Source of the DNA: Pseudomonadota bacterium
GTDB lineage: Bacteria; Pseudomonadota; Alphaproteobacteria; SHVP01
Direction of reading: 5' to 3'
NCBI GenBank assembly: GCA_027622715.1
Contig: JAQBYN010000018.1
Span: forward strand, 1-61,988
DNA length: 61,988 nt
Positions within the stretch are counted from its first letter, which is position 1. Each line of letters opens with the position of its first letter. Under the pieces are notes generated by a model that was given only the letters and a program-made list of their open reading frames with translations, was not told the origin of the DNA and did no database searches. The translations under genes and the position numbers were made by a program. Positions 1,471-19,387 of the stretch are shown here, piece by piece.

Positions 1471-1493
1471 GACAATATTTTTGTTGTCAATAT
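1471..1493. promoter_or_regulatory. Candidate LysR operator (nested inverted repeats)
   Basis: In the unusually AT-rich divergent gap, GACAA (1471-1475) pairs with TTGTC (1484-1488), and overlapping it ATATT (1475-1479) pairs with AATAT (1489-1493). The second dyad, 5 bp arms with a 9 bp spacer, has the size and T-N11-A character of LysR boxes. Binding is inferred from position only. Confidence 0.5.
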
Positions 1494-1558
1494 GGGGCCA
1501 GGGCGGTCTTATCTTTACCGGAGAAGGGCCGCAAAGGTCCGAATTTGGGAGGATTGGA

Positions 1559-3171: not shown

Positions 3172-4179
3172 ATGTCCGTCCGGAGATTTCTTCTAAGACG
3201 GCTGGTATTGGTGGTGCCCATTTTGTTGGGCATCACCTTCCTGACGTTCATGCTTGTCCGCATTGGCGAGCAAAGTCCGGTGGCGATGCTCGGCGGCCCG
3301 ATGGCCGACCAAGCCACCTTTGCCATCATCGAAGAAGAACTCGGGCTCGACAGGCCGTTCTTCGTCCAGTTCGGAATCTACTTGGGAAAACTTGTCCAGG
3401 GCGATCTCGGCGACTCCTGGCAGTCCTCCGAGCGGGTTGCCGACGAAATCAGAAACCGGCTGCCGGCAAGCCTCGAACTCTTGATCTTTTCGGTCCTGTT
3501 GGGCGCGCTCATCGGGGTGCCGGTCGGGTTGCGTTCGGCACAACGGCCCAACGGGCTCTTCGATCAGGTTAGTCGCTTTGTCTCGCTGTTTGGTTTTTCG
3601 GTGCCGACCTATTGGATCGCGCTGATGTCGATCTTCGTGTTTTTCTTTCTGCTGCGTTGGTCGCCGCCGCCGATGGGGCGCCTTAATATTATGTCGTTTC
3701 CACCGCCGCGTTTAACCGGTAGCTACTTTATCGACAGCATTGTTTCGGGCAATTGGTCGACTGCGTGGTCTGCGCTTGGGCACCTGACGCTTCCCGTAAT
3801 TCTGTTCTCGATTATTGTGGCCGCGCCGATCATCAAACACACGCGGGCGATCGCCCTAGAAGTCCTCTCGAGCGACTATGCGCGCGCCCAGGGACTGCGC
3901 CCAAAGACCGTCCGGCGTATCGCGTTGCGAAACGCTATCGTGCCGATCCTCACGTTCATCGGCACCGAATTAACCGGTTTGCTCGCGGCGGTATCCTTGC
4001 TTGAACTCATTTTTGCGTGGGGTGGCCTTGGGCAGTGGGGACTGAATGCAATTCTGTTGGGGGACTTCGCGGCGGTTCAAGGCTATGTCTTGGTGCTTGC
4101 CGTATTCTCCGTGTCAATTTTTGTCGTGATCGACTTGTTGGTGCTGGTGCTTGAACCGCGCGCCACGCTGCGCTCATGA
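3172..4179 (+). CDS. ABC transporter permease, DppB/OppB type
   Basis: 335 residues with an N-terminal membrane segment (RFLLRRLVLVVPILLGITF), a large periplasmic loop and about five more membrane helices, as in the BPD_transp_1 family. The cytoplasmic coupling loop (EAA motif) is visible as DYARAQGLRPKTVRRIALRNA about 90 residues from the C-terminus. It forms the channel together with the next gene product, which starts four bases before this stop. The start lies 35 bp after the binding-protein gene, past two palindromes, which may set the expected excess of binding protein. Confidence 0.93.
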   Translation: MSVRRFLLRRLVLVVPILLGITFLTFMLVRIGEQSPVAMLGGPMADQATFAIIEEELGLDRPFFVQFGIYLGKLVQGDLGDSWQSSERVADEIRNRLPASLELLIFSVLLGALIGVPVGLRSAQRPNGLFDQVSRFVSLFGFSVPTYWIALMSIFVFFFLLRWSPPPMGRLNIMSFPPPRLTGSYFIDSIVSGNWSTAWSALGHLTLPVILFSIIVAAPIIKHTRAIALEVLSSDYARAQGLRPKTVRRIALRNAIVPILTFIGTELTGLLAAVSLLELIFAWGGLGQWGLNAILLGDFAAVQGYVLVLAVFSVSIFVVIDLLVLVLEPRATLRS

Positions 4180-5066
4180 CCGACGTCTCCTTGACCGGCA
4201 CAGCACTCTCCGGCTTCAGTTGGCGAGGGCGAATTTTTGGCATTGCCCGGCGCAGCCCGACCTTTGCGATCGGCTTCGCCATCGTCGCGGCCTTCGCGCT
4301 CATCGCCATCTTTGCCGATATCATCGCGCCCTTCGGTCCGATTGAGACTTTTTCTCGCGAAGTCCTGATCCCGCCGGGTGCCAAGTTCATTTTCGGCGCC
4401 GACGGCAACGGTATGGACGTCTTCAGCCGCGTCCTCCATGGCGCGCGCTATGCCTTTGGGATCGCCGTCCCCTCGGCTGCTTTGATGCTGGTCATTGGTG
4501 TCCCACTCGGGCTTATCGCCGGTTACAAGGGCGGGGTTCTTGACGAGATTGTCTTGCGGATCATGGATGTCCTCCGCTCGTTTCCCTCTATCGTCTTGGC
4601 GCTCGCCGTCGTCGCCGCGACGGGGCAATCGCTTGTTAATGTCGTATTGGTTATCGGGTTTCTCGACGCGCCGATTTTCGCTCGCTTGGTGCGCTCTGAG
4701 GTGTTGGCGCTGCGTTCTAGCGGTTTCATTGAGTCCGCCGTCGCCGCGGGCAATCCGACCTGGCGTATCCTTTTCGTCCATCTCATGCCCAATGCTATCC
4801 GCGGCTCGACCGCCATGATTGCCGTCCGTATGGCATGGGCGGTGCGGATCAGCGCCACCTTGGCCTTCATCGGGGTGGGTATTCAGGCGCCGACCCCGGA
4901 ATGGGGCGCGATGATTCGGCAGGGCGCGGAATTCATCATCAGCGGCGAGTGGTGGGTCGCGCTGTTTCCGGGTGCGGCATTGGTGGGCGTTGTGTTGGGC
5001 TTCAACCTACTCGGCGACGGTCTCCAAGATCTGTTGGATCCGCGCCGAAAGGCGACCGGCAAATGA
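4176..5066 (+). CDS. ABC transporter permease, DppC/OppC type
   Basis: 296 residues. The N-terminal cytoplasmic segment and first helix are typical of OppC_N, followed by about five membrane helices. The coupling loop reads ESAVAAGNPTWRILFVHLMPN. Its ATG overlaps the DppB-type stop (ATGA), and its own stop overlaps the following ATPase start, so the three genes are probably translationally coupled. Partner of the DppB-type permease in the heterodimeric inner-membrane channel. Confidence 0.93.
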   Translation: MTDVSLTGTALSGFSWRGRIFGIARRSPTFAIGFAIVAAFALIAIFADIIAPFGPIETFSREVLIPPGAKFIFGADGNGMDVFSRVLHGARYAFGIAVPSAALMLVIGVPLGLIAGYKGGVLDEIVLRIMDVLRSFPSIVLALAVVAATGQSLVNVVLVIGFLDAPIFARLVRSEVLALRSSGFIESAVAAGNPTWRILFVHLMPNAIRGSTAMIAVRMAWAVRISATLAFIGVGIQAPTPEWGAMIRQGAEFIISGEWWVALFPGAALVGVVLGFNLLGDGLQDLLDPRRKATGK

Positions 5067-6067
5067 GTCTGCTCGAGGTCAATAATTTGCACACGCACTT
5101 CGTGTCGCACGACCTCAACAACCGGCTACGGGTGGCCAAGGGGTTGAACGGGGTTTCCTTCGAGGTCGACAAAGGCGAGATCGTTGGCATTGTCGGTGAG
5201 ACTGGTGCAGGCAAATCGCTGACTGCCATGTCCATCATGGGCCTGTTGCAACTGCCGGCGCGCATTGTCGAGGGGTCGGTGCGTTTTGATGCTAACGAGC
5301 TGGTCGGCCTTGGCGTCGAAGAGCTCAATAAGATCCGCGGCACCCAACTGACGATGATCGTGCAATCACCGCTCTCATCGCTCGACCCGTTGTCGCGCGT
5401 TGGCAAGCAACTGGTCCGCGCGCAGCAGGAGCATCGCTCGATCTCCGCTGATGACGCTTGGCGCGCCGGCGCCGACATGCTGGCGACAGTAGGTATTCCG
5501 GACGCCGAGCGCCGAATGCGCGCGTGGCCTCACGAACTTTCTGGGGGAATGGCGCAACGCGTCCTCATCGCGCTTGCGCTCATCAATGGCCCGCGCATGC
5601 TTATTGCCGACGAGCCCACCACGGGTCTTGATGTGACCGTGCAGGCGCAGATTCTGGATCTACTTCGGACTCTCGTTGCCGACCGTGACATGGCCGCCAT
5701 GATCATCACCCACGACCTCGGCGTGGTCGCCCACTACTGCACCCGCATGTGCGTCATGTTTGCCGGTTCGATCGTCGAAAGCGGGCCGGTGCGACAGGTC
5801 TTCAACGACGCGCGGCACCCCTATACCCAAGCCTTGATTTCATCGACACCGAAACGCATTGCCCAAAAGGGCTACGGCCAAATTGGTGGACCGCCGCCGA
5901 ACCTCTACGACCTGCCCCTCGGGTGCCACTATCGCGACCGCTGTTCGCGCGCGGCTGACATCTGCCACTCGACGCCGCCGGTGACCGGTGTTGGTGATAA
6001 GCACGAGGCGATGTGCCATTTCGCAGACGAGAGTGGGGCCAACCCCGCGGCGGCACACCATGGCTGA
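5063..6067 (+). CDS. ABC transporter ATP-binding protein, DppD/OppD type
   Basis: 334 residues from the ATG that overlaps the preceding stop (ATGA). Walker A GETGAGKS, signature LSGGMAQRV, Walker B LIADEPTTGLD and the H-loop ITHDLG are intact. The C-terminal oligopeptide-transporter extension (HPYTQALISSTPK) leads into a cysteine cluster (GCHYRDRC, DIC, MC), which in Dpp/Opp ATPases can hold a [4Fe-4S] cluster. Pairs with the next ATPase to power import. Confidence 0.93.
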   Translation: MSLLEVNNLHTHFVSHDLNNRLRVAKGLNGVSFEVDKGEIVGIVGETGAGKSLTAMSIMGLLQLPARIVEGSVRFDANELVGLGVEELNKIRGTQLTMIVQSPLSSLDPLSRVGKQLVRAQQEHRSISADDAWRAGADMLATVGIPDAERRMRAWPHELSGGMAQRVLIALALINGPRMLIADEPTTGLDVTVQAQILDLLRTLVADRDMAAMIITHDLGVVAHYCTRMCVMFAGSIVESGPVRQVFNDARHPYTQALISSTPKRIAQKGYGQIGGPPPNLYDLPLGCHYRDRCSRAADICHSTPPVTGVGDKHEAMCHFADESGANPAAAHHG

Positions 6068-7103
6068 ACCGATCCTTCAGGTGCGCAATCTGGTGAAGCA
6101 TTTTCCGGGTAACCGACCCGGCGAAACAATCCATGCCGTGAACGGTGTTTCCTTCGATCTAATACCCGGTCAGACGCTTGGGCTGGTTGGTGAGAGCGGT
6201 TCCGGTAAATCGACGATCGGTCGGTGCGTGGTTCGCCTTCTGCGGCCCACGTCCGGGAAGATTCAATTCGGCGCGCACGACATCACGACCATCGGTGAAG
6301 GTCAGATGCGGCCGCTTCGCAAGGAAATCCAGATCGTTTTCCAAGATCCATACAGCGCGCTCAATCCGCGAATGAGGGCAGGAAATTTGATTGGCGAGTT
6401 GGTCAAATTGCATAGCGATCTTGGACCCCAGGCGCGCCGGGAAAGAGTAGCTGCGCTGGCTGCACGCGTGCATCTCAATGCGGATCTCTTGACCCGGTTT
6501 CCCAACGAATTGTCGGGTGGACAGCTACAGCGCGTTTGTATCGCGCGGGCGCTCGCCACCAATCCGAAGGTCATCGTTCTTGATGAACCCACTAGTTCAC
6601 TCGACTTGTCGGTCCGGGCTGGGATTTTGGAACTGCTGGGCGAGTTGCAGCGCGAGACCGGGGTCGCAATGCTGTTCATTTCTCACGACTTGGAAACCGT
6701 TCAGCTCGTCAGCCATCGCATTTTAGTGCTGTATCTGGGGTTCGTTATCGAAGACGGGCCCGCCAATGCTGTTTTCGCCAAGCCATCACATCCCTATTCA
6801 CAGGCGCTTTTGTCGGCCGACCTGCCGCCAGATCCTGACGTCGTTCTCGACCGTCAAATTCTACAGGGTGAAGTGCCCGGTCCAGTCAATTTGCCGCCGG
6901 GCTGCGCGTTCGCGCCGCGGTGTCCCTTGGCGCGCGATGAGTGCACCGGCGCCAGACCGCCCCTGGTCGGGGTCGGCGAGAATCATCATGCGGCCTGCGT
7001 GCGCATCGCGGATGGGACCAACGATATCCGGGCGGCTCAAATCGCCGCAGCCGGCGATATTCACAAGAAATTTCAAGATCAGTTCGTTAGGAGAACGACA
7101 TGA
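6060..7103 (+). CDS. ABC transporter ATP-binding protein, DppF/OppF type
   Basis: 347 residues. The ATG at 6060 lies inside the end of the preceding gene (8 bp overlap). Walker A GESGSGKS, signature LSGGQLQRV, Walker B IVLDEPTSSLD and the H-loop ISHDLE are present. The C-terminal cysteines (PPGCAFAPRCPLARDEC, AAC) match the Dpp/Opp extension. It completes a five-component importer (binding protein, two permeases, two ATPases). Its stop overlaps the start of the amidohydrolase-fold gene by four bases, tying transport to downstream metabolism. Confidence 0.93.
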   Translation: MAEPILQVRNLVKHFPGNRPGETIHAVNGVSFDLIPGQTLGLVGESGSGKSTIGRCVVRLLRPTSGKIQFGAHDITTIGEGQMRPLRKEIQIVFQDPYSALNPRMRAGNLIGELVKLHSDLGPQARRERVAALAARVHLNADLLTRFPNELSGGQLQRVCIARALATNPKVIVLDEPTSSLDLSVRAGILELLGELQRETGVAMLFISHDLETVQLVSHRILVLYLGFVIEDGPANAVFAKPSHPYSQALLSADLPPDPDVVLDRQILQGEVPGPVNLPPGCAFAPRCPLARDECTGARPPLVGVGENHHAACVRIADGTNDIRAAQIAAAGDIHKKFQDQFVRRTT

Positions 7104-8035
7104 GCGTCAAAGGGACCATCGACATCGTCGTCAACGTGACGACACCAGACCTGATCAAACGCGGCGGGTCGCCAAGCGACGAGACCTTCAAGGATCAAGT
7201 TCGCCAGCCCAAGGGAGCGCGAAAAGGCGTTAGCATTGCCGACTATCTGCGCAAGATGGACCGTGCCGGTATCGAACGCTCGTTGCTGATTGCCGTGCGC
7301 GCCGGCGATATGCGCATGGAGGGATCAAAGGAAATCTCCTACAAATATGTCGCCGACATTTGCCGCAAATACCCCGACCGGTTCTCTGGCCTCGCGGGTG
7401 TTAACCCGATGCTCGGGATGCAGCAGCTGCGCGATCTGGAAGAGGCGGTCGACAAATACGGCTTCGTTGGTGCCCATTTCTACCCGCACTGGTTCGATAT
7501 GGCGCCCGACCACCCGTACATCTTTCCGGTCTACGCAAAATGTATCGAACTCGACATTCCGATCATGATGCAGGTCGGACACAACCTGATCTATCAACGC
7601 GACCGGCGGCTGCCCAGCATGGCGCAGCCCATTACGTTGGATCGCATTGCCATTCTGTACCCCGAGCTCAAACTCTTGGGAATCCATTTGGGCGTGCCGT
7701 GGACAGATGAGATGATCTCAATGGCCTGGAAGCACGAGAACATCTATATCGGTGGCGATGCCTATGCGCCGAGCTATTGGCCCAAACAGATGGTGCACTA
7801 CGCCAACACATACGGATCGCACAAGTTCCTCTTCGGCACCGACTGGATGGTGATCGATCCAGAGCGCGCGGTCCGCGACGTCGAAGAACTCGGGTTCCGG
7901 CCCGATTCTAAGGTAAAGATCATGCGGGATAACGCCCTGCGTATTTTCAAGTTGCCAAAAGGCGGTCTCAAGACGACGCCGCGCAATTGGGGGGCAGCGC
8001 TTGCCGATGCCCCTTCTAAGAAGGGAAAGAAATAA
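7100..8035 (+). CDS. Amidohydrolase-2 family (metal-dependent TIM barrel) protein, atypical metal site
   Basis: 311 residues resembling the amidohydrolase_2/ACMSD-like family of hydrolases and decarboxylases: KYPDRFSGLAGVNP, GFVGAHFYPHW, LGIHLGVPW and the near-C-terminal FGTDWM that supplies the metal- or acid-binding aspartate. The usual N-terminal D-x-H-x-H metal motif is missing; the equivalent strand reads TIDIVVNVTTPD. The histidine in GIHLG and the late aspartate remain. It overlaps DppF by 4 bp and the cupin by 1 bp (TAATG). Inference: hydrolysis or decarboxylation of the imported compound or its CoA-pathway intermediate, possibly with reduced metal content. Confidence 0.8.
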   Translation: MSVKGTIDIVVNVTTPDLIKRGGSPSDETFKDQVRQPKGARKGVSIADYLRKMDRAGIERSLLIAVRAGDMRMEGSKEISYKYVADICRKYPDRFSGLAGVNPMLGMQQLRDLEEAVDKYGFVGAHFYPHWFDMAPDHPYIFPVYAKCIELDIPIMMQVGHNLIYQRDRRLPSMAQPITLDRIAILYPELKLLGIHLGVPWTDEMISMAWKHENIYIGGDAYAPSYWPKQMVHYANTYGSHKFLFGTDWMVIDPERAVRDVEELGFRPDSKVKIMRDNALRIFKLPKGGLKTTPRNWGAALADAPSKKGKK

Positions 8036-8886
8036 TGCCTCGCCCGCACATCGAATTTATACAGGCCCAAGCATTATCATGGGCCGATGGCCTGCCTGCC
8101 GGCGCCGCGCGCGCCGATGTCGGTTGCAAGACCCTCAGCATCGACGTTGCCACGGGCGCCGCGACCTGCGTCGTCCGCTATCCGGCTGGCTGGAAACGGG
8201 CCGAAGGGGAATACCTCTCGACCGACGAAGAGTTCTATGTGCTCGATGGCGCGCTTTCGATCAACGGAATCACCTACGAGCGCGACAGTTACGCGCACCT
8301 GCCGGCTGGTTACCTACGAAAGGCCGCCGCGTCGGATAAGGGCGCCGTTTTGCTGACATTCTTCGACGGTCCGGTCGATGCCGTCGCAGCCAATGCGCCA
8401 GGTTCAATGTTTCGTACCGATCGTCTGGTTGAGAAGGTCTCGGTGCCCACTGCCGACTGGGGCAATGCCGACGTCGATGCGATGGGCCTGCGCGATATAT
8501 CGACCAGCTCGCGCCTGCTCTCGTTGTTCACCGACCCAGACACCGGCGAGATCACCTATCTAACCGGCGTCGTGCCGTTCAAATCTGAGTCCTCGCCAGA
8601 ACGTCATCCCGTCGGGCAGGAGTTCTACATTTTAGGCGGCTCCCTTGCCGGCGTCGGCGGGTTCATGCAAGGCGGCGCTTATTGCTGGCGCCCGCCGATG
8701 GTGACACATGGGCCCTATGGCAGCCCGACCGGCGCATTGATCATTTTGCGCAGCGTCGGTGGTCCGCTCACCACCGAGCTCGATGCGCCGGTGTCGCATA
8801 ACTATGCCCCCGACCATCGCCCGGTCTTGCCGCCCGAATTGGCCGCGGCCGGATCGAAGCCTTTCCCACCGCCGGCCCGGTACTAG
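8035..8886 (+). CDS. Bicupin-fold protein
   Basis: 283 residues with two cupin-like halves, one around EEFYVLDGALSINGITYERDSYAHLPAG and one around QEFYILGGSL to MVTHGPYG. The metal histidines of classic cupin motifs are sparse, so it may be a weak-metal or non-metal bicupin related to ChrR-type or dioxygenase-like cupins. The start shares one base with the amidohydrolase stop. Its position between a hydrolase and a CoA ligase suggests a catabolic enzyme (isomerase or dioxygenase) rather than a regulator, but the reaction is unknown. Confidence 0.7.
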   Translation: MPRPHIEFIQAQALSWADGLPAGAARADVGCKTLSIDVATGAATCVVRYPAGWKRAEGEYLSTDEEFYVLDGALSINGITYERDSYAHLPAGYLRKAAASDKGAVLLTFFDGPVDAVAANAPGSMFRTDRLVEKVSVPTADWGNADVDAMGLRDISTSSRLLSLFTDPDTGEITYLTGVVPFKSESSPERHPVGQEFYILGGSLAGVGGFMQGGAYCWRPPMVTHGPYGSPTGALIILRSVGGPLTTELDAPVSHNYAPDHRPVLPPELAAAGSKPFPPPARY

Positions 8887-8892: not shown

Positions 8893-10467
8893 ATGAACGC
8901 CGGAATCATTGCCAACCGCCCCGCGTCCTACCGCGCGGTTACCATCACCGAAGGGTTGCGGACCAGTGCGCGCCGGACACCGGACAAACTGGCCCTCACG
9001 GAAGAAGGGCGCAAACTCACGCACGGGCAACTCATCCGCCGGATTAATCGGGTGTCCAATGCCGGCCTCGGCCTTGGCCTAAAGCCCGGCGATCACGTGG
9101 CGCTCATGTGCACGAATTGCATCGAGTTTGTCGAAGTCACCTGCGGCATGTCCGAGATCGGCGTCGCGCCGGCGATGATCAACGCGCGCTCCACCGCGCA
9201 CGAGACGTCCTATATCTGCAACGACGCTGGGGCCAAAATCCTGTTCGTCCATGCCGATAACCAAGAAGCGGCGTTTGCCGCCGACCTGCAGACGGTTGAG
9301 CGCATCGTGGTCATCGATCCCGGCAACGACAACAGCGATTATGAGAAACTTCTGGCCGCCGCATCGAGCGAACAATCCTCGATTGCGCTTGAAGAGTGGG
9401 ATGTTTTCTCGATCCCCTATACCTCGGGAACGACCGGCAATCCCAAAGGCGTCTTGCTGTCGCACCGCTCACGGGTGAATCACATGCTGTTCACCATGGC
9501 CGCCAACTATGGCTGCTACACCCCCGAGGCCCGACCGCTCGCGACCTCGCCGTTTCACAACGGCGCCGGTTTCATCAATGCGTTGGCGGGTCCCTTCTTC
9601 GGTGGCACGACCCACATCCTGCCCAAGTACGAACCGGAACTGATGCTGCGCGCGCTACAGGAACGCAACATTACCAGCATGTTCATGGTGCCGACGCACT
9701 TTCACGCCATGTTTAATCTCGGACAAGACACCCTCCATAAGTACGACAAGAGTTCGCTGCAGGTGATCCATTCCAATGCCGCGCCGCTGCCGCAAGCGAC
9801 AAAGGAAAAGATCGTCGACTTCTTCGGTGAAGGAATCTTGTTCGAATCCTACGGGTCGACCGAAGCCGGCGGTTGTACCTTCCTGCGCCCCGAAGACCAG
9901 TTACGCAAGATGAGTTGCGTCGGCCAACCCGGACCCAGCGTATGGCTCGAAATCCGCAATGATCAGGGCGACGTTCTGGGAAACGACGAGGTCGGCGAAG
10001 TCTGGATCAAGAATGCTTGGCTGTTCAACGGCTATTGGAACAATCCCGAAGCGACGGCCGAAGGGCTGGTCGACGGATGGTGCACCGTGGGCGATCTCGG
10101 CAAGACCGACGACGAGGGCTATCTCTACCTCGTCGACCGCAAGAAAAACGTCATCATCTCCGGCGGTCAGAATATCTTCCCACGCGAGATCGAAGAGGTG
10201 CTGCACCATCACCCGGCGGTTGGCGAAGTGGCCGTCGTCGGCAAGAAGGACGACTATTGGGGCGAGTCCGTTACCGCCTTCGTCGTCCTGCGCCCAGGCC
10301 AGGCCGCCGGTGCTGACGAACTCAAAGAACGCTGCGGCCGCGAACTCGCGCGTTACAAGTTGCCCAAGGAATTTCATTTCGTCGAGGCGCTGCCAAAAAA
10401 CGCGACGGGAAAAATCCTGCACCGCGAATTGCGCGATCGGTTGAACAAGGGGGAGTTCGACACATGA
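8893..10467 (+). CDS. Acyl-CoA synthetase (AMP-forming ligase)
   Basis: 524 residues, complete adenylate-forming enzyme. P-loop YTSGTTGNPKGV, adenine-binding YGSTEAGG, hinge LVDRKKNVIISGG, and C-terminal LPKNATGKIL with the catalytic lysine. The pocket (FHNGAGF and neighbours) resembles fatty- or aryl-acid ligases but does not fix the substrate. It lies 6 bp after the bicupin, and its stop overlaps the start of the tandem hydrolase. Inference: CoA activation of the acid released from the imported compound. Confidence 0.9.
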   Translation: MNAGIIANRPASYRAVTITEGLRTSARRTPDKLALTEEGRKLTHGQLIRRINRVSNAGLGLGLKPGDHVALMCTNCIEFVEVTCGMSEIGVAPAMINARSTAHETSYICNDAGAKILFVHADNQEAAFAADLQTVERIVVIDPGNDNSDYEKLLAAASSEQSSIALEEWDVFSIPYTSGTTGNPKGVLLSHRSRVNHMLFTMAANYGCYTPEARPLATSPFHNGAGFINALAGPFFGGTTHILPKYEPELMLRALQERNITSMFMVPTHFHAMFNLGQDTLHKYDKSSLQVIHSNAAPLPQATKEKIVDFFGEGILFESYGSTEAGGCTFLRPEDQLRKMSCVGQPGPSVWLEIRNDQGDVLGNDEVGEVWIKNAWLFNGYWNNPEATAEGLVDGWCTVGDLGKTDDEGYLYLVDRKKNVIISGGQNIFPREIEEVLHHHPAVGEVAVVGKKDDYWGESVTAFVVLRPGQAAGADELKERCGRELARYKLPKEFHFVEALPKNATGKILHRELRDRLNKGEFDT

Positions 10468-12149
10468 TGATCACGCGCCACTATGCGACCGTTGGTAATC
10501 GGCGGGTGCACTACAGGCGTGCGGGGCAGGGGCCGGCCATTGTCCTGCTCCATGCCTCCCCGGTGTCGAGCGAGGTGTTCGAAGCCGTTCATTTTCCCGT
10601 CCTTGCCAAAGAATTCACCGTCATTGCGATTGATACGCCGGGGCAGGGCCTATCGGACAAGTTGGACCTTGGCCGCCAGGAAAAGATCGAAGACCTTGCT
10701 GACGCACTCGCTGAAACGCTTGAAGTCCTCGGCGTCGATCATTGCGCGCTCTACGGTCGCCATACCGGCGCCTCGATTGCTGTCGAATACGCCCGCCGAT
10801 TCCCGGCGCGCGCGGCACTGGTCATCACCGACGGATTCCCGCTCTTCCCACCGGAAGTACGCGACGACTATCTGAAGAACTACCTTGCCGACATTGTGCC
10901 CGATTGGGCCGGCTCGCATCTGTTGTGGTGGTGGTTCCGTTACCGCGAACAGCATGTCTTTTGGCCTTGGCACAAACACAAAGGCGCCAACCGCGCCGAC
11001 CAAGACGTGCCCGATCTCGCCTTCCTCCAGCGTGGGACGCGCGAAATTCTTGTCGCCGGCAATACCTATAAGAGCCCCTACGCGGCGGCGTTCCTTCATG
11101 AAGGCCCGGCAGCCGTTGATGCCATCCTCAAGGGGCCGGTACCGGTGTGTTTCGGTGGGCGGCCGGGCGATTCCGTATTCTCCGCGCTCGAGCGGATGGA
11201 CAAAAAATCGTGGATCAAGGAATTCGCGCGCGATAAGCGCGATGCCGCGATGCAAGAATTGGAAATCTTTCGTCAGCATCCGGCGAAGGGGGAGCCGCCA
11301 CCGCCGCCTGATACGGTGGACCTGCCCGGACGTGTCACCATCCGTTACGCTGCCGTCGGCGGCCGCCAGGTCGCGGTTCGGTCGTTTGGCGATCACGCCG
11401 GCACCCCGGTTGTGCTGCTGCACCGCTTCCCGGGGTCGGGAAAATTTCTCGAACCGCTACTGCTCGAACTCGGAAAATCGCGCCGCGCTATCGCGATCGA
11501 CCTGCCGGGCCACGGCGATTCGGATCGGTTGGGCGATCACAGCGTGACCGCTTATGCCGCTGTCGTCGCCGCAACGCTTGATCATCTTGGACTGCCGTCG
11601 GCGCATATCTACGGCCACAACGCCGGCGCATCGGTTGCGATCGCGCTTGCGCTCGATCGCCCGCGTGCCGTTGCAAGCCTGATGCTCGAAGGGCCGATGG
11701 TGATGACGGCGACCGACCGCGCGCGATTCGCGGCGCAGTGGGCGTTGCCGGCCGATCCAGTATGGGATGGCCACCACCTCACGACCATCTGGCACCAAAC
11801 GCGCGACAAGCGCCTGTACTATCCTTGGTACGAGAAAACGCTTGCCGCCAGTCGCTTTATCGAGCCCGAAGTCGAACCCGAGAGAATTCACGACCAAGTC
11901 GTCGAGATGATCAAGCATCCGTGGTCGTTCAAACCCGCGTGGGACGCGGCCTTCGCTTATCCGACCCGCGAAGGCCTATCGGAAGTGCGCGTCCCGACGT
12001 GGATCGGGGTCGCCGACGCCGACGACTTCGCGCCCTGCCGTGAGGCCACGGAACGCCTTCTTGGGCAGGACGTCACGGCCCTGGGGCCCACACCATCGCC
12101 GGCGGCCACGGCGCAGGCGATCAACGCCTTCCTCAAAGCACAAGCGTGA
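10464..12149 (+). CDS. Tandem-duplicated alpha/beta-hydrolase protein, non-canonical nucleophiles
   Basis: 561 residues made of two alpha/beta-hydrolase domains of about 280 residues each. Half 1 shows IVLLHASP, AIDTPGQGLSD and a nucleophile elbow YGRHTGAS. Half 2 shows VVLLHRFPGSG, AIDLPGHGDSD and YGHNAGAS. The elbow consensus G-x-S-x-G should carry Ser, Asp or Cys, but here it has His in half 1 and Asn in half 2. Family knowledge: a subset of the fold with G-x-H-T-G elbows exists. Inference: a non-hydrolytic lyase, a C-C bond enzyme with unusual chemistry, or a pseudoenzyme. A pair of ATGs at 10464 and 10467 overlaps the ligase stop. Confidence 0.82.
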   Translation: MMITRHYATVGNRRVHYRRAGQGPAIVLLHASPVSSEVFEAVHFPVLAKEFTVIAIDTPGQGLSDKLDLGRQEKIEDLADALAETLEVLGVDHCALYGRHTGASIAVEYARRFPARAALVITDGFPLFPPEVRDDYLKNYLADIVPDWAGSHLLWWWFRYREQHVFWPWHKHKGANRADQDVPDLAFLQRGTREILVAGNTYKSPYAAAFLHEGPAAVDAILKGPVPVCFGGRPGDSVFSALERMDKKSWIKEFARDKRDAAMQELEIFRQHPAKGEPPPPPDTVDLPGRVTIRYAAVGGRQVAVRSFGDHAGTPVVLLHRFPGSGKFLEPLLLELGKSRRAIAIDLPGHGDSDRLGDHSVTAYAAVVAATLDHLGLPSAHIYGHNAGASVAIALALDRPRAVASLMLEGPMVMTATDRARFAAQWALPADPVWDGHHLTTIWHQTRDKRLYYPWYEKTLAASRFIEPEVEPERIHDQVVEMIKHPWSFKPAWDAAFAYPTREGLSEVRVPTWIGVADADDFAPCREATERLLGQDVTALGPTPSPAATAQAINAFLKAQA

Positions 12150-12156
12150 GGACGAG

Positions 12157-13725
12157 ATGACGGCTCCCGCGGTCGATCCCGCTGATCCAGCCGCCATCGC
12201 TGCACGAGCGGTGTCCATCGTCGGCGCCGACAACGTGGTCAGCGACGCGGACGAACGCGCGGTCTACTCGCAAGATATCGTCCAATGGGATGCGCCCATC
12301 GCCGATCTCGTCGTGCGCCCCGCTTCGGAGACTGACGTCTCTGCACTGCTCCGGCTCGCCGGCGAGCTTGGCTTGGCGGTCGCGCCGCGCGGTGGCGGGC
12401 TTTCCTACACACGGGGTTATGTGCCGGAAAAACCCGGCACGATGATCCTCGACCTCACACGCCTCAACGTCATCCACGAGGTCAACGAGGAGGACCGCTA
12501 CATCACGCTCGGGCCTGCCGTGACCTGGCAACAGGTGATGGACGAACTGCGCCCACGCGGCATGCGCACCGTCCTAACTGGGCCGATCTCAGGCATTTAT
12601 TCGACGGTCGGCGGCGCCGCGTCCCAGAACATTCCTGGCAGTATGGACACGATCCTCGGGCTCGAGGTGGTGTTGGCCGATGGCCGCATCGTGCACACCG
12701 GGTCCGCCGCGATTTCGCGCGCCGACTCGCCGTTCTATCGCTACTACGGACCCGACCTGACCGGATTGTTTCTCGGCGATACCGGCACCTACGGTGTTAA
12801 GACGCGGCTCACCCTACGGATTGAACGAATCCCTGAGGGCGTTGCCTTCGGTTCGTTTGCGTTTGAAACGTTGAGCGATATGGCCGCCGCCATGACCGAC
12901 GTCTCGCGTCTCGGGGTCGCCGCCAAGAGTTTCGGCATGGACCCGCTCAAAAACCGTACCGCCACCAAGGTCGGCTTGCGCGAAGGCGCCGAAACGTTGC
13001 GGGACGTCGCGCGCGGCTCGGGATCGCTGGTCCGCGGCCTCAAGGATGCGGCGCGGATCGTCGCGGCCGGGCGCGACGCCTATGACGACGTCAAATGGTC
13101 GCTCCACCTCACCGTCGAAGGGTTCGATCAACGCGCCGCCGACACCGCAATGGGGGCGGCGCGCAAGGCCTGCGCGGTCCACGGCGGCCGTGACATCGAA
13201 CCCAGCATCCCCATCGCCATGCGCGCCAAACCGTTCTCCATCCGCGGCTTCCTTGGCCTGAACGGCGAAAGTTGGGTGCCCGTGCACGGCGTCTTCCCGA
13301 TGTCCAAGGCGCGCGATGTGGTTCGCGTCGTCGAGAATTTCTTTGCCGAACGCCAACCGCTGCTCGACGAACACGACATCCAGGTCTCGTACCTGTCGTC
13401 AATCAACGGTCAATTCTGGTTGCTCGAGCCGATGTTCTATTGGATGGACGCGGTCAGCGAGTTCCACATGCGCTACCTCGACCGCAAGCGTTACGCCAAG
13501 TTCCAAGCGATTCCCGCCAACCCGGATGCGCGGGCAGCGGTGATGCGCATGCGCGGCGAGCTGCGCGACCTGTTCTTCGGCCTCGGCGCCGTGTCGGCAC
13601 AAATCGGCAAGTTCTACAATCTAGCCGACGCGCTCGAGCCCGAGACCTACGCCGTCCTCACATCGATCAAGGACCTGCTCGATCCCGACCGCCGTCTCAA
13701 TCCGGGCAACCTCGGCTGGCGGTAA
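12157..13725 (+). CDS. FAD-binding oxidase/dehydrogenase (PCMH/VAO-type)
   Basis: 522 residues. The start at 12157 follows GAGGACGAG, seven bases after the hydrolase stop; an upstream ATG in this frame lies inside that gene and is rejected. The PCMH FAD domain is seen at about 40-215: VRPASETDVSALLRLA, the GGGLSYTRGY loop, and GIYSTVGGAASQN. The C-terminus ends LDPDRRLNPGN, the usual end of glycolate-oxidase/VAO-type flavoenzymes. It should oxidise a hydroxy acid or phenolic alcohol. Last gene of the operon; its stop lies in the A tract of the opposing terminator. Confidence 0.88.
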   Translation: MTAPAVDPADPAAIAARAVSIVGADNVVSDADERAVYSQDIVQWDAPIADLVVRPASETDVSALLRLAGELGLAVAPRGGGLSYTRGYVPEKPGTMILDLTRLNVIHEVNEEDRYITLGPAVTWQQVMDELRPRGMRTVLTGPISGIYSTVGGAASQNIPGSMDTILGLEVVLADGRIVHTGSAAISRADSPFYRYYGPDLTGLFLGDTGTYGVKTRLTLRIERIPEGVAFGSFAFETLSDMAAAMTDVSRLGVAAKSFGMDPLKNRTATKVGLREGAETLRDVARGSGSLVRGLKDAARIVAAGRDAYDDVKWSLHLTVEGFDQRAADTAMGAARKACAVHGGRDIEPSIPIAMRAKPFSIRGFLGLNGESWVPVHGVFPMSKARDVVRVVENFFAERQPLLDEHDIQVSYLSSINGQFWLLEPMFYWMDAVSEFHMRYLDRKRYAKFQAIPANPDARAAVMRMRGELRDLFFGLGAVSAQIGKFYNLADALEPETYAVLTSIKDLLDPDRRLNPGNLGWR

Positions 13726-13766: not shown

Positions 13767-14687
13767 TCAAGAAAACATTTCTGCGGCCACCTGTACCATG
13801 GCGTGCGCCTTTGGGCCGATCCGCTTGACCGACTCGACAAAGCGCGGATGGGTCATGCCGGAGCCCAGGAACGTCCATCGCATCGCTTGATGTTGCGTCT
13901 CGACGTAGCGCTGGCGTTCGTCTGTTTTGAACGATCGCCCAGTCGCTGCAACAAAAGCGTCGGCGTCGAACTCGGTTTGTTGCCGCAGCCCGTCGTCGAG
14001 CATGCTGCCAATTTGAAAATACTCTTGGATCGCCATGTCGATCTCGGCAGGATCCGATGCATCCACCAATGACTCGACCATCAGGGTGTCGATCTTGGCG
14101 TGCTGCGCTTCCTCCATCCAATGATGGCGCAACAGCGACTTGAACTGCGGATCGAGTGCGGCGTCGCACTTAATGCTGTCGACATAGTGGCCTTGCGACA
14201 TCCACTCGATGTGCAAGATCGTCAACGCGACGGCAAGGGGATGGTGCGAGAGAACGGCGCGGGCGATCTCCGACGGTGGGCCGATCACCTCACAGGGTGT
14301 GCCGAAATCCGCGATGAACGCCTTACGGAAAGTCTTGAACAGATGGATGTGTTTGGCTTCTTCGGCGGCGAATTGAAGCAACGCCCGGACCCGGTAGTCG
14401 TCGGCGTCCTTGAGTTGCGGCCGCGTATGGTCCAACACGAACGGTAAGATAAATTCCTCCACCAATCCAAACATGTACAGATAGTTGTGGCCCCGAATCT
14501 GGTTGGCCACGGTCCGTTCCTCCGGTTCAAGGAAGGTCATTGCGTCGGTTCTAGCCAAGGTTTCCGGCATGAAGGGCCGGTCAAAATCCAGCGGCTTGTC
14601 TTCGCCGATGATGTCTTCAACCCGCCAGTGAACCCGCTCCGAGGCGGCTAGCACGTCGCGGTAGGTGTATTCCGGTTGCGTGTTCAT
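13767..14687 (-). CDS. Ferritin-like diiron protein (AurF/p-aminobenzoate N-oxygenase-like)
   Basis: 306 residues, all helical. It shows the repeated carboxylate/histidine pattern of non-haem diiron proteins: E77/E78, E109-E110 with H113 (EEAKH), E161 (HIEW), and E192-E193 with H196 (EEAQHAK). Family knowledge: such proteins activate O2 for oxygenation or N-oxygenation, or act as iron-dependent oxidases. The start is supported by AAAGGA six bases upstream. It lies 33 bp downstream of a DUF1127-like gene on the same strand, and both are divergent from a large BTAD regulator. The substrate is unknown. Confidence 0.82.
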   Translation of the reverse strand: MNTQPEYTYRDVLAASERVHWRVEDIIGEDKPLDFDRPFMPETLARTDAMTFLEPEERTVANQIRGHNYLYMFGLVEEFILPFVLDHTRPQLKDADDYRVRALLQFAAEEAKHIHLFKTFRKAFIADFGTPCEVIGPPSEIARAVLSHHPLAVALTILHIEWMSQGHYVDSIKCDAALDPQFKSLLRHHWMEEAQHAKIDTLMVESLVDASDPAEIDMAIQEYFQIGSMLDDGLRQQTEFDADAFVAATGRSFKTDERQRYVETQHQAMRWTFLGSGMTHPRFVESVKRIGPKAHAMVQVAAEMFS

Positions 14688-14720
14688 GATCGTTCCTTTC
14701 CGTTAAAGGGATTGTGTTGT

Positions 14721-14942
14721 TCAGTCTTCGCTAGCGGGGACGGGTACGCCGTAGCGCACGGCCAATGCCTGGGGCGATCGCAGCCCCATGGCGCGCAGTT
14801 GCTGCATCGTCATGGATCTGGTCTGGGCCGCCGCGCGGCGCCGAGCCTCCCAGCGCCTGACCGCAAAAAGGGTCGTTTGGCCGCTGGCGACGAACCGCTG
14901 CCAGGGCCCGAAACTGGGTGTGCTAGGTGCGAATGCGGTCAT
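14721..14942 (-). CDS. Small DUF1127-like basic protein
   Basis: 73 residues. The second half, AVRRWEARRRAAAQTRSM followed by LRAMGL, matches the arginine-rich tryptophan-containing DUF1127 pattern (W-x-x-R-R-R, then L-x-x-M-G-L). The ATG at 14942 has GGAGAAG upstream; a longer frame reaches 15101 but has a low-quality N-terminus. Family knowledge: small alphaproteobacterial proteins linked to RNA metabolism and phosphate or stress adaptation. Cotranscription with the diiron gene is inferred from spacing. Confidence 0.65.
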   Translation of the reverse strand: MTAFAPSTPSFGPWQRFVASGQTTLFAVRRWEARRRAAAQTRSMTMQQLRAMGLRSPQALAVRYGVPVPASED

Positions 14943-15101
14943 TTTCTTCTCCGTCCTGTTGTGCAGCCCCCGTGGCCGCAGACCGAAGATGGACGCGCAC
15001 CGTGTGAGACAACGTTGGAACCGGCGTGGAAAATGCTCAAAATGAGGTTCATTCGGCCGTTTGACCGTGTGAACAAGCGGTCGGCGGCGAGGAAGCGGCA
15101 A

Positions 15102-18100
15102 ATGTCGGTGGAACTGAAGGTCCTGGGGGAATTGGAGGTCGTTCGCGACGGCGCGCGCCTCACCATGCCTCAGTCCAAGAAAACCAAGGCTTTACTCGCT
15201 TATTTGGCGGTAACCGGCCGACCGCACCGTCGCGAGCGGCTTTGCGAGATGTTCTGGGAGCTGGCTGATGATCCGCGCGGCTCCCTACGGTGGTCGCTGA
15301 GCAAACTTAGGCCGTTGCTGGATGAACCCGGTGACCGTCACATTGTGGCCGATCGCGAAACGGTGACGCTGGCAGGCGTCGCGGTGGACCTCCTGGCCCT
15401 GGAGAAAGCCGCCGACGCGCCCTTGGATGCCCAAGTCGCGGCGCTCGAAGCCTGCCGCGGCGAGTTGCTCGAGGGCCTCGATATGTTGAATCTGCTCGAT
15501 TACCAGGCTTGGCTGGTGGCGCAGCGTGAAGATATGCGGGCCAAACGCATTGGTCTTCTCGACGCCGTGCTCGGGTCTTCTGCGGGCGAAGAGGGCGCGT
15601 TGGTCAGGCATGCCCGCACCCGGGTCAACATCGATCCCTACAATGGCGAGGCCCGGGCGCGGTTCATTCGTCTGCTGCACAGCGCCGGTCATGGCGATGA
15701 AGCGGAAGAACAGTATCGCGCGGGTTGTCGGTTGTTGGCCGAAGTGGGCGCGACGACCACGCCGATCGACACTACTTGGCAGGAGATTCGGCGCCCGACG
15801 GGTGCCCCGGCGCTGGCGCCGGCGCTAACTGAGAGGCCCCGCGCCATCACAGAAGGTTTCGTCGGTCGGGTGGAGGAACTCAACAGTCTGCTCAGCATTC
15901 TTGAGGGAGCGGGGTCGCGCAGAGAGGCGCGCGTCGTGGTCATCGCGGGCGAACCTGGAATCGGGAAAACATCGCTCGTCGCCGAGCTCAAGTCACGCGC
16001 CGCAGATCAAGGCGCGACGGTTCTGTCCGGTGCCGCTTTTGAAGCTGAATCGGGGCGACCTTACGGCCCCTGGGTCGAGGCGCTGCGGGAGATTCGCGCC
16101 GCCGCGATCGGGCCCGCCTTGTCCGCCGACCTTGCACCTCTTCTCCCGCGCCTTGAGAAGGAGCCAGTCCAGGAGCATTCGCGCGACCGCCTCTATGGTG
16201 GGGTCGTCGAGCTTTTGGCCTCGCTGGCCCATACCGCGCCTCCGGTTGTCCTTTCTTTCGATGATATTCACTGGGCCGACGGTGCCACCTGCGAACTACT
16301 CCACTACGTCGTTCGCATGTCGCGTCATCGCCCTTTACTCGTCGTCCTCACGGCGCGCGATGGTGAGCTGCCCGACAATGAGGCGGCCACCGGAACCCTG
16401 GCGGCGCTGCGTCGCGAGGGGTTGTTGGACGAGATCATGTTGGGGCCGTTTACGCAGGCAGAATCCAACGCGCTGATCGCCGGCCTGCCGACGGAAGACC
16501 TTCAACGAGTTTTTCATCAAAGCGCGGGCAACCCGCTGTTTGCAATTCAGCTGGCGCATGCCGTAAGCGAGCACGCGGGGACTGGGGACAGCGTCGCTCA
16601 GACGGTGCGTGACCGGTTGGATCGACTACCCCCGTTTGCCGGAGATGTGCTGCGTTGGGCGGCAGCGCTTGGCCAGGCTTTCAGCAGTGATGTCCTACGC
16701 AACGTGGTTGGGGGTGACGATGAAGAATTTGTAGCCACGCTGGAACTTCTTGGACGTCACGGATTGATCCGCGAGACCGGTGACCGCAACGGGCGCTACG
16801 TCTTTGCCCATGACATCGTCCGCGCCGCGGTCTACGACCAACTTTCCGGCCCGCGTCGGCGCCTGATCCACCTAAAGATCGCCAAATTCCTGGAGGCGAA
16901 CGCAGAGGGGGAATCGGACTCGGCAAGCGATATTGCCCGCCACGCCGCGCTGGCTGGCGAAAACGGCATGGCTGCGCGCGCCTGTGTTCACGCAGGACGT
17001 CGATACCTTCGGCAGTTTGCTGGCACCGAGGCCGACGCCGTCGCCAAGCGCGGGCTCCGCTACGCAGAGGCTTTAAGCGAACAAAAGCGCATCAAGATTA
17101 CGTTGAGGCTCTTGGCGATTCGCCACCAAGCCCACCGTCCCTCAGACCCTGAGGCGGCCGCAGCCGAGATCAAGACTTTGGCTGAGCGCGCTCTCGACCT
17201 GGGGCTCTTAGACACCGCGCGGGCCGGATTTCATTTCCTATCGGATCTGCGCTGGGAAGTCGGCGACATGACGAGCGCGGGTACATACATTCGGCGTGCC
17301 GAATTCCTCAGCCGCACTGGCAACGATAACGCCCGAATCGTGGGCTTGGGTGAAGCGGCGCGGTGTCTGGTCTTGCTGGACCGCGATCTCCCTGATGCCG
17401 AGGCCATGCTGTTGGAAGCGCGGGCACTTGCCCAGCGTGCCGGTATCGAGCACGAATCGCTGGAGGACGCCCAGGGACTGTTGAGCCAGTTTCACGGGGA
17501 CGTCGAGGGCGCCAGTCAGGGTTTTGGTAAGGCGCGCGATCTGTCTCGGCGGAACGGCAACAGACTGTATGAATTCTACGCTCTCGAACACTTAGTCATT
17601 GCGGAAATGGAGCGCGGGCGTCGCGATTCAGCAAGAGCTCTGTGCGCCGAATTGGAACAATTGGGCGAAAAACTGCGCGACGGTAGCGAACTGCCGATGG
17701 CGCGCGCTCTCGCCGCCCTCTGCCGCTACAATCATGATGAAAGCGAAGTGACCGAGGCCGATTTGGCGGCGTGTACGGATGCGTTGCGCCTGACGGACGC
17801 AAAGCATCGGCTTTCCGTGGTTTTGACCGCCTCGTCGCGCATTCATTTTGAGAGGGGGCGGCCCGCGCAAGCCCGGATTCTGGGCGAAGAAGCGCTGTCC
17901 TGTGTGCGCCATCTTGAACGGCCTAACGATATCGCGCGCATTCTGTCGTTTCTTGTCCAGGCTTGCACCGCGCAGGGTGACGACGACGCGCATGACCGCT
18001 ATTTTGACGAATTGTTACGATTGACCCAGCGGCCTCTGTCTATCCAAGTCAAACGTCTGGTGGATGCGACGCTCGTTGCGGGGCAAACGGGCGCGGAACC

Positions 18101-18113
18101 GGAATCGGAGTAG
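15102..18113 (+). CDS. SARP/BTAD-type transcriptional regulator with STAND ATPase and TPR region
   Basis: 1003 residues from the ATG preceded by GAGGAAG. Domains in order: OmpR-like winged helix (1-95; KVLGELEVVRDG, RRERLCEMFWEL), bacterial transcriptional activation domain (about 96-240), FVGRVEEL linker, AAA/NACHT-like ATPase with Walker A GEPGIGKT near 283 and Walker B VVLSFDDIHWAD near 386, then helical TPR-like repeats to the C-terminus. There is no C-terminal LuxR HTH, so DNA binding must be N-terminal. Such AfsR-like proteins are common in actinobacteria and less so here. The frame stays open upstream to 14676, but that part overlaps the divergent DUF1127 gene and is rejected. Likely regulates its neighbours. 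Confidence 0.85.
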   Translation: MSVELKVLGELEVVRDGARLTMPQSKKTKALLAYLAVTGRPHRRERLCEMFWELADDPRGSLRWSLSKLRPLLDEPGDRHIVADRETVTLAGVAVDLLALEKAADAPLDAQVAALEACRGELLEGLDMLNLLDYQAWLVAQREDMRAKRIGLLDAVLGSSAGEEGALVRHARTRVNIDPYNGEARARFIRLLHSAGHGDEAEEQYRAGCRLLAEVGATTTPIDTTWQEIRRPTGAPALAPALTERPRAITEGFVGRVEELNSLLSILEGAGSRREARVVVIAGEPGIGKTSLVAELKSRAADQGATVLSGAAFEAESGRPYGPWVEALREIRAAAIGPALSADLAPLLPRLEKEPVQEHSRDRLYGGVVELLASLAHTAPPVVLSFDDIHWADGATCELLHYVVRMSRHRPLLVVLTARDGELPDNEAATGTLAALRREGLLDEIMLGPFTQAESNALIAGLPTEDLQRVFHQSAGNPLFAIQLAHAVSEHAGTGDSVAQTVRDRLDRLPPFAGDVLRWAAALGQAFSSDVLRNVVGGDDEEFVATLELLGRHGLIRETGDRNGRYVFAHDIVRAAVYDQLSGPRRRLIHLKIAKFLEANAEGESDSASDIARHAALAGENGMAARACVHAGRRYLRQFAGTEADAVAKRGLRYAEALSEQKRIKITLRLLAIRHQAHRPSDPEAAAAEIKTLAERALDLGLLDTARAGFHFLSDLRWEVGDMTSAGTYIRRAEFLSRTGNDNARIVGLGEAARCLVLLDRDLPDAEAMLLEARALAQRAGIEHESLEDAQGLLSQFHGDVEGASQGFGKARDLSRRNGNRLYEFYALEHLVIAEMERGRRDSARALCAELEQLGEKLRDGSELPMARALAALCRYNHDESEVTEADLAACTDALRLTDAKHRLSVVLTASSRIHFERGRPAQARILGEEALSCVRHLERPNDIARILSFLVQACTAQGDDDAHDRYFDELLRLTQRPLSIQVKRLVDATLVAGQTGAEPESE

Positions 18114-18116: not shown

Positions 18117-18374
18117 ATGCCCAAGATTGTAGTCGAACGGCTTTTCGACGAGCCGGTGGCTTTTGAAGATTTGCAGAAAATGGAAGACAACGCCCAGTGG
18201 TGTCTCGAGCTGTACAACGTAAAGTTCCTTCAGTCACTTTTTGCGGCAGATAGGAAGCGCATGATTTGTGTCTACGAGGCGCCCGACGCCGAAGCCGTGC
18301 GTTCCGCCAACCGCAAGGCCGGACTGCCTTTCGAGGCTGTATGGAGTGCCGACGTATTTGAGGGCCGGAGGTAG
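18117..18374 (+). CDS. DUF4242 family protein
   Basis: 85 residues: PKIVVERLFDEP, then RMICVYEAPDAEAVR and a C-terminal PFEAVWSADVF. This matches the small DUF4242 ferredoxin-like fold, some members of which bind nickel or other metals. A GTG three bases upstream could also serve as start; the ATG has GGAG six bases ahead. It begins three bases after the regulator stop, so the two are probably cotranscribed. Possible roles are metal or ligand sensor, or metallochaperone. Confidence 0.75.
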   Translation: MPKIVVERLFDEPVAFEDLQKMEDNAQWCLELYNVKFLQSLFAADRKRMICVYEAPDAEAVRSANRKAGLPFEAVWSADVFEGRR

Positions 18375-18439
18375 CGATCTCTTCCGACTCCGATTCGGCA
18401 CCGCTCGCGACCGATTGGCGGCCGCCGCCCGAGCCCTAC

Positions 18440-19387
18440 TTGCCACCGAAGGCCCAGCGCGATCTGTGGCCTGACGTTTCGGGCAATACGATCAACGGCC
18501 TAGGCGAGAGCGCCGTGCGCCGACCCGAACCGATCTACCACCACGACCCCGAACGGACGCGCTTCGCAGCGCTTCAAACCTGGTTTCGCGGCCTGCCGTC
18601 CCATCCATTGATCGGCAAAGCCCGGCGCGACCGGATTCCCATCATGGAGGAGCCACTCGCCCCGCTCGCGCCGACGCCCTTACAAAGAACGTCTGCCGAT
18701 TGGAGCGCCGTCGTCAAACAAAAGGCGCGCGACCTCGGTGCCGAACTCGTGGGCATCGCGCGCATGCAGCCAGAATGGGTGTTCGACGGATTCGATGTGT
18801 CACAGAAATGGGCGGTGATGCTCGGTATCGCGATGGATCACGCCGAGCTACGCACGGCACCCCATCCGCGCGCCATTGCCGAGGTGGTGCGCCAATACGG
18901 TCGCGGCACCCAGGTTGCCAAGCGGCTAGCAAGTTGGTTGCGCGCCCAGGGTTGGGATGGCTTTCCCCACGGCGGCCCCGATGCCGGCCCGGTCCTGATG
19001 ATCCCGCCCGCCTTGGCGTGTGGTTTCGGCGAACTCGGCAAACACGGATCGATCATCAACCCGGATTTGGGGTCAAGCTTTCGGCTAGCCTATGTCCTTA
19101 CCGACGTGCCGCTAGAACCCGATGCCCCTGAAGCTTTTGGCGCCGATGGGTTCTGCCAGCATTGCCGCGTCTGCGAAACGGCGTGTCCCCCGGTCGCGCT
19201 TACCCCTGCGAAGCATCTCGTGCGCGGTGAAACAAAGTGGTACGTCGACTTTGATAAGTGCGTCCCGTACTTCAACGACACCACCGGGTGTGGCATTTGC
19301 ATTGCCGTCTGCCCGTGGAGCCTGCCCGGTGTGGCGCCAAAGCTCGCGGCAAAGCTAACCCGCCGTCAGCAGCGCCAAGTCGCCTAG
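18440..19387 (+). CDS. Reductive-dehalogenase/QueG-like [4Fe-4S] protein, start uncertain
   Basis: 315 residues from a TTG. The C-terminal half has GFGELGKHGSIINPDLG (corrinoid-domain-like), then two [4Fe-4S] motifs: CQHCRVCETACP (C-x2-C-x2-C-x3-C-P) and a second with one distant Cys followed by CGICIAVCP. This is the arrangement of reductive dehalogenase catalytic subunits and epoxyqueuosine reductase. No Tat signal is visible, so it is probably cytoplasmic. Oddity: 26 coding-like codons precede the TTG (open from 18362) with no ATG, GTG or TTG, so the true start may be non-standard or the sequence may hold an error. It follows DUF4242 closely. Confidence 0.78.
   Translation: MPPKAQRDLWPDVSGNTINGLGESAVRRPEPIYHHDPERTRFAALQTWFRGLPSHPLIGKARRDRIPIMEEPLAPLAPTPLQRTSADWSAVVKQKARDLGAELVGIARMQPEWVFDGFDVSQKWAVMLGIAMDHAELRTAPHPRAIAEVVRQYGRGTQVAKRLASWLRAQGWDGFPHGGPDAGPVLMIPPALACGFGELGKHGSIINPDLGSSFRLAYVLTDVPLEPDAPEAFGADGFCQHCRVCETACPPVALTPAKHLVRGETKWYVDFDKCVPYFNDTTGCGICIAVCPWSLPGVAPKLAAKLTRRQQRQVA

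Follow-up and report, generated by a model that had tools for sequence, protein, structure and literature searches.

The reductive dehalogenases (RDHs) comprise respiratory, transmembrane, and two catabolic classes, and in the account given in PMC10463259 the catabolic enzymes carry a vestigial second core. The respiratory enzyme PceA is exported through the Tat system and has a membrane partner, and in NpRdhA a proton-donor dyad is formed by Tyr426 and Lys488, as outlined in PMC7565698. Ros_A3X954 is described in PMC13101508 as a Tat-less Roseobacter enzyme that debrominates 2,6-dibromophenol. In T7RdhA, according to PMC10008544, a Lys-His pair is positioned at a hairpin that touches an Fe-S cluster.

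The window referred to throughout is a stretch of 61,988 nucleotides from contig JAQBYN010000018.1 of an alphaproteobacterial genome (assembly GCA_027622715.1). It encodes an RDH-like protein that is very likely a small B12- and Fe-S-containing enzyme and that, with moderate confidence, we take to be a soluble class III cobalamin enzyme with a single core, cytoplasmic and of the catabolic type, most likely a dehalogenase, that has been added to a catabolic operon. The fold, family, conserved residues, selection, and synteny presented here were computed. Like NpRdhA, BhbA, and JtRdhA, the protein is Tat-less and presumably cytoplasmic, displays the predicted fold for a cobamide and two [4Fe-4S] clusters, occurs in a catabolic context, and retains a putative tyrosine proton donor together with a basic residue at the position of Lys488. 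Those enzymes have a second, vestigial core and most of them a fused reductase (PMC10463259), whereas the window protein consists of one core of ~336 residues. Neither of the respiratory hallmarks, a Tat signal and an rdhB neighbor, is seen in the window. In the open-license PMC papers searched, no paper on a member of this subfamily or assay of one was found, although an assay may exist under another name.

The RDH-like gene and its product

The gene is positioned as follows.

18377..19387, + strand: RDH-like corrinoid/Fe-S protein, ~336 residues if begun at ATC 18377, with Tyr174, Arg236, and eight cysteines

Residue numbers are counted from 18377. The reading frame is open to 19387, and its listed start is TTG 18440. 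That codon is too internal, because similarity to the congeners begins ~10-20 residues 5' of it, where a W-x-PP-x-EPY motif is kept. There is no in-frame ATG, GTG, or TTG within this conserved upstream stretch, and ATC 18377, which lies behind a GGAGG sequence, is the sole well-spaced candidate. In the congeneric genome G002 the orthologue starts with a GTG that overlaps the stop codon of the preceding DUF4242 gene, and the window reads GTA at that position. The true start is probably near 18377. As for the canonical start that is missing from 18372-18440, a non-standard start, a base error, or initiation at TTG 18440 are all possible.

A pattern scan of a species-genome collection yielded 247 relatives, of which the best 80 were kept. 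The first-pass annotation of this DNA had described an Fe-S protein with both ferredoxin-type motifs, no Tat signal, and no fused reductase, and each of these points is borne out. The motifs read C-x2-C-x2-C-x3-CP and C-x9-C-x2-C-x3-CP, and all eight cluster cysteines are invariant in the 80 aligned members listed. An RRx[FLIM] motif, and with it a Tat signal, is missing from the N-terminal region, the highest 19-residue Kyte-Doolittle mean is 1.39, and no reductase domain is attached to the single core. The gene is under purifying selection, with a dN/dS of 0.066 over 310 codons against its counterpart in the congener G001.

Family assignment and predicted fold

The window protein scores 107.7 bits with the RDH model TIGR02486 and 48.1 bits with the QueG model TIGR00276. 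The former value lies under the curated cut-off of 160.35 bits, and the protein is therefore filed as RDH-like without canonical RDH status; the latter falls short of a cut-off of 200 bits. Both models match all 80 aligned members listed, that for QueG more weakly. The Pfam family PF13486 matches one of these 80 (E<=0.01) and, in the Pfam search at E<=1, not the window protein. The nearest sequences with solved structures are those of the PceA type and NpRdhA. A profile built from the 80 members listed finds the structure 8q4h with an E-value of 2.1e-43, PceA with 4.4e-40, NpRdhA with 6.4e-38, and QueG with 8.8e-11.

An AlphaFold2 model was calculated from alignment A1, from which locus L098 was excluded for a stop or X in frame. 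The model has a pLDDT of 94.8 and a pTM of 0.92. With Foldseek its match to PceA has an E-value of 4.9e-18 as compared to 5.5e-8 for the best QueG. Superpositions with VIA-align gave a Z-score of 28.3 for 8q4h (3.2 Å, 290 residues aligned), 27.9 for NpRdhA (3.4 Å, 291 aligned), 27.1 for PceA (3.2 Å, 280 aligned), 15.4 for QueG (2.5 Å, 194 aligned), and 7.4 for MMACHC (3.6 Å, 163 aligned). On the basis of the model, the window protein is a complete single-core RDH fold, since the alignments with the RDHs span residues 42-330 or beyond and those with QueG are confined to residues 104-319. This predicted fold is the one in which PceA, NpRdhA, and QueG bind base-off cobalamin. The first-pass annotation had called the protein RDH/QueG-like and had proposed a model search and a structure prediction as checks. 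The RDH half of that description stands, with QueG the more distant relative; the best model match was to the RDHs rather than to canonical QueG, and the predicted structure has a fold suited to the cofactor.

The match to MMACHC raises the question of whether the protein might process or store cobalamin without itself turning over a substrate. Such a role is very improbable, given that the match is far weaker than those to the RDHs and that strict conservation extends to both Fe-S clusters and to the proton-donor pair.

With QueG the window protein shares the class III cobalamin fold, the clusters, one tyrosine, and a GKH motif that is common to the QueGs of the family genomes. QueG has an extra C-terminal part, which is lacking here. 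In the description of PMC4646009, QueG has no equivalent of Arg305 of PceA and contains a D-Y-H motif; the window protein lacks the DYH motif and has Arg236. Furthermore, the genome already contains a separate QueG homologue (C86, L004). A QueG paralogue acting on tRNA would agree with the GKH motif and with the match of the QueG model to every member listed, but in light of these differences, and of the lower Z-score and shorter alignment with QueG, it is extremely improbable.

Genomic context

The features that precede the RDH-like gene in the window are listed below.

507..1433, - strand: LysR regulator, transcribed away from the operon, with a counterpart of 63.8% identity at the corresponding site in G001
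1481..3136, + strand: extracellular solute-binding protein, SBP_bac_5
3172..4179, + strand: ABC permease, DppB-like, BPD_transp_1
4176..5066, + strand: second ABC permease, by eye from the frame translation
4835..6067, + strand: oligopeptide/dipeptide-type ABC ATPase, probably beginning at about 5066 or beyond
5988..7103, + strand: oligopeptide/dipeptide-type ABC ATPase, DppF/OppF-like
7100..8035, + strand: Amidohydro_2 protein
8035..8886, + strand: Cupin_7 (ChrR cupin-like) protein
8893..10467, + strand: AMP-forming acyl/aryl-CoA ligase
10464..12149, + strand: tandem alpha/beta hydrolase, two domains
12040..13725, + strand: FAD-linked oxidase of the VAO/GlcD superfamily, probably initiated at ATG 12157
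13767..14687, - strand: AurF-like (diiron N-oxygenase-like) protein, PF11583 28.3 bits, cut-off 29.6
14676..18113, + strand: AAA_16 ATPase regulator, N-terminus SARP/BTAD-like as judged by eye, probably initiated at ATG 15102
18114 or 18117..18374, + strand: DUF4242/SCO4226-like protein without histidine, beginning at GTG 18114 or ATG 18117

The second permease overlaps an ORF listed on the opposite strand (4083-4781) that has no Pfam match. In G001 the run consists of the divergent LysR gene followed by genes for SBP_bac_5, the ABC permease(s), two ABC ATPases, Amidohydro_2, Cupin_7, the CoA ligase, the hydrolase, the flavoprotein, and the RDH, with the last of these beginning 5 nt after the flavoprotein gene and closing the operon. 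The window contains the same run at 507-13725 with protein identities of 64-91%, followed by the AurF-like gene in the opposite orientation and then by the regulator-DUF4242-RDH series. In G002 the ligase-hydrolase-flavoprotein part lies on a contig other than that bearing the regulator, DUF4242, and the RDH, which keep their order on one contig. The Amidohydro_2/Cupin_7/ligase/hydrolase/flavoprotein run also occurs in other genera of the family, namely in G003, G009, and G006 (in G006 cut by the contig end), and the matches to the RDH-like protein in these three genomes are at the level of QueG only (best E 7e-13 to 1e-9). The core pathway thus needs no RDH step, and the RDH seems to have been appended to an older catabolic operon. 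The regulator-DUF4242 stretch, in turn, looks like a further insertion or a loss in G001.

Several minor observations concern the operon genes. The hydrolase is a 561-residue protein of two fused domains with full-length relatives in G001, G002, G003, G006, and G009; its comparison with solved structures gave no match at E<=1e-15. The VAO-type flavoprotein belongs to a paralogue-rich family, every one of the 10 family genomes containing between 3 and 11 matches. The AurF-like gene sits between the operon and the regulator, and no counterpart was found in the syntenic loci examined.

The gene next to the window RDH encodes an ABC transporter on the other strand, and no ferredoxin, reductase, or rdhB gene adjoins it. 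The operon contains no halogen-specific gene. In a census of 136 of the 138 same-strand neighbors of the relatives (two neighbors dropped for size, the congener L025 excluded), the commonest Pfam family occurs 6 times in the 136, and no theme is shared outside the genus. The RDH-like gene is thus mostly an orphan outside the genus and linked to the operon within it. Clustering had pointed to the flavoprotein as a general partner (L041, L056, L075), a candidate that was dropped when tblastn at E<=1e-8 returned G001 loci only. No relationship (E 0.56 at best) exists between the flavoprotein of the window and the one encoded next to a fused RDH in TM1040.

Gaps of just 0-3 nt separate the regulator, DUF4242, and RDH genes in the window. 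The first-pass annotation had envisaged a possible corrinoid-dependent reductase system comprising a DUF4242 protein, some members of whose family bind metals, and a BTAD regulator. The ORF at 18117 is, as it had stated, a DUF4242 protein, scoring 60.1 bits with PF14026 against a gathering cut-off of 28.5. It scores 16.7 bits with NF033706, the model for the nickel-binding SCO4226 proteins, for which the cut-off is 125. In SCO4226, as described in PMC4186839, each nickel ion is coordinated by one or more histidines. The window protein has no histidine at all, and therefore the nickel site of SCO4226 is absent and the suggested metal-binding role is not supported. A search of solved structures gave no match to it at E<=10. 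The 1145-residue regulator has Pfam matches to AAA_16 and, more weakly, to other ATPase-type families, with no BTAD match at E<=1; its putative BTAD/SARP identity comes from the N-terminus as read by eye.

Protein searches find DUF4242 in two of the 10 family genomes, that of the window and G002, and not in G001 or G007; the regulator is likewise not found in the G001 genome. Upstream of the other relatives no DUF4242 gene was accepted, either by tblastn across 116 loci or with a two-sequence profile run against 754 stop-to-stop stretches. One match, at L048 (E 0.023), was taken as chance, another frame there being fully open and reading as the end of a longer protein. A conserved DUF4242-RDH linkage was consequently rejected, as the pairing was seen only in the window and in a single congener, G002. 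The placement of DUF4242 and the AAA/SARP-like regulator before the RDH is specific to this lineage, and neither belongs to the enzyme itself. A functional system of all three genes, with DUF4242 serving as the metal or cofactor partner of the reductase, would fit the close spacing and the order kept in G002, but given the narrow distribution of DUF4242 and its lack of histidine it is quite improbable. What survives of the system first envisaged is a predicted cytoplasmic corrinoid/Fe-S protein of the reductase type, which in G001 adjoins the flavoprotein gene.

Active site and proposed function

Residue equivalences were obtained by counting along the printed alignments to PceA and NpRdhA. 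Tyr174 corresponds to Tyr246 of PceA and Tyr426 of NpRdhA and is a tyrosine in 79 of the 80 aligned members listed. Its partner, Arg236, occupies the position of Arg305 in PceA and Lys488 in NpRdhA and is conserved in all 80. The window protein resembles PceA from S. multivorans in its predicted fold, its clusters, and this Tyr246-Arg305 pair, but Asn272 and Trp376 of PceA are replaced by Gly200 and Phe299, each invariant among the 80 listed. Val170 (79/80) lies at the position of Ser422 in NpRdhA, Phe299 at that of Arg552, and Glu169 is found in 74 of the 80. The substrate residues Ser422, Lys488, and Arg552 of the catabolic RDHs are thus unmatched, with valine, arginine, and phenylalanine in their places. 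Judging from the alignments, the catalytic Tyr-Arg pair is kept and the phenol-hydroxyl site of the characterized catabolic RDHs is lost, because Ser422 and Arg552 have given way to Val170 and Phe299. The signature of the subfamily consists of GELGKHGS, VRGxxKWYVDFDKC, the glycine in place of Asn272, and the hydrophobic residues at the phenol-hydroxyl-binding positions of NpRdhA.

The Lys222-His223 pair (each residue in 79 of the 80 listed) is shared with QueG. T7RdhA (PMC10008544) and a second RDH of the window genome, on contig C1, have a Lys/Arg-His pair at the hairpin as well, and by analogy the contact between hairpin and cluster in T7RdhA may explain its conservation. Ros_A3X954 contains the motifs CDICTKCADACP and CAICMRVCP (PMC13101508), to which the C1 gene has a similar look. 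The window subfamily has the Tat-less plan and the fold class in common with that enzyme and differs from it in signature and pocket. These relationships to Ros_A3X954 and T7RdhA were judged by motifs and residue spacing, not from published sequences.

We infer the binding of the cofactor, the electron donor and route, and the dehalogenation itself as follows. A base-off cobamide would be held between the core and the two-[4Fe-4S] domain, and electrons would pass from a general ferredoxin or flavodoxin through the two clusters to the cobalt. The substrate, bound above the cobalt, would be reduced, with Tyr174, partnered by Arg236, donating a proton, and a halide or other group would leave. Within the genus the enzyme would have joined the 3' end of the LysR/ABC/amidohydrolase/cupin/CoA-ligase/hydrolase/flavoprotein operon, and the halogen would most likely be removed in the cytoplasm from the operon substrate or a pathway intermediate.

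The altered pocket would also be compatible with another reaction of the same fold and cofactors, such as the cobamide-dependent reductive cleavage of a C-O bond, an epoxide, or an activated double bond in a pathway intermediate. The invariant glycine for Asn272, the hydrophobic Val170 and Phe299, and the subfamily-wide Glu169 would all be in keeping with such a change, halogen-related families are not prominent beside the other members, and QueG provides a precedent for a class III enzyme with a non-halogen reaction (PMC4646009). On the other hand, the Tyr-Arg pair of the RDHs is retained, and QueG has no such arginine. The equivalent of Asn272 is missing from other aligned RDHs, namely BhbA (alanine), two fused types (valine), and a Dehalococcoides RDH (isoleucine), and thus the loss of the asparagine alone does not exclude dehalogenation; from these alignments the residue seems dispensable for it. 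We regard a different reaction as possible but unlikely, and dehalogenation as the preferred reading.

A broader and similarly doubtful suggestion is that the GELGKHGS/VRGxxKWYVDFDKC proteins constitute a third functional lineage of class III enzymes beside the dehalogenases and QueG: stand-alone cytoplasmic reductases, mostly of marine Proteobacteria, in which the site has been rebuilt (glycine for Asn272, the Val/Phe pair, Glu169) for a B12 substrate class or bond that is novel. If the proposed function is correct, the single-core cytoplasmic type of ~330 residues would represent dehalogenase chemistry in a very simple natural form, and marine bacteria would gain a link with the turnover of organohalides or with a novel reaction of B12. 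The altered pocket provides a sharp test of which residues are needed for dehalogenation.

Distribution and paralogues

The best 80 of the 247 relatives come mainly from alpha- and gammaproteobacteria, many with marine names (Ruegeria, Falsiruegeria, Tropicibacter, Woeseiaceae MAGs). Loci L025, L026, and L059 match contigs of G002 and G007 in length, such that the 80 loci are partly non-independent of the family genomes. The organisms that carry these relatives are mostly aerobes. By profile search at E<=1e-60, 17 of the 289 genomes from the class to which the window belongs encode the subfamily, or 15 of the 282 of good quality (~5%). There are at most four matches per genome, and one of those four is a contig-end fragment. 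The proteins are ~330 residues in length, with one core, no Tat signal, and no reductase domain; an RRxF sequence occurs in one of the 80 aligned members listed, upstream of its likely start. A plasmid search returned 44 matching records, none covering 80% of the query, the best of which were RDHs at ~32%, mostly fused.

A tree of 61 chosen rows sets the subfamily apart from four QueGs and from nine RDHs of other types, and the QueGs and the nine RDHs each make up one side of a starred branch. As long branches meet in this midpoint-rooted tree, we claim only that the subfamily is separate, and no order of branching among it, QueG, and the other RDHs.

The window genome contains three matches to B12-binding domains over the cut-off, and the cell therefore uses B12. 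A search of the genome for CobS found none, so that import is possible; the cell may import its cobamide. The genome also encodes a 50% paralogue of the RDH-like protein (C26) and the RDH of another type on C1 (L003), with 34% identity. The latter keeps the asparagine and tryptophan at the positions altered in the window protein. This second RDH of ~408 residues, with cluster motifs like those of Ros_A3X954, falls within L109 (G000:C1:122000-141000), where the match lies at C1:130970-131644.
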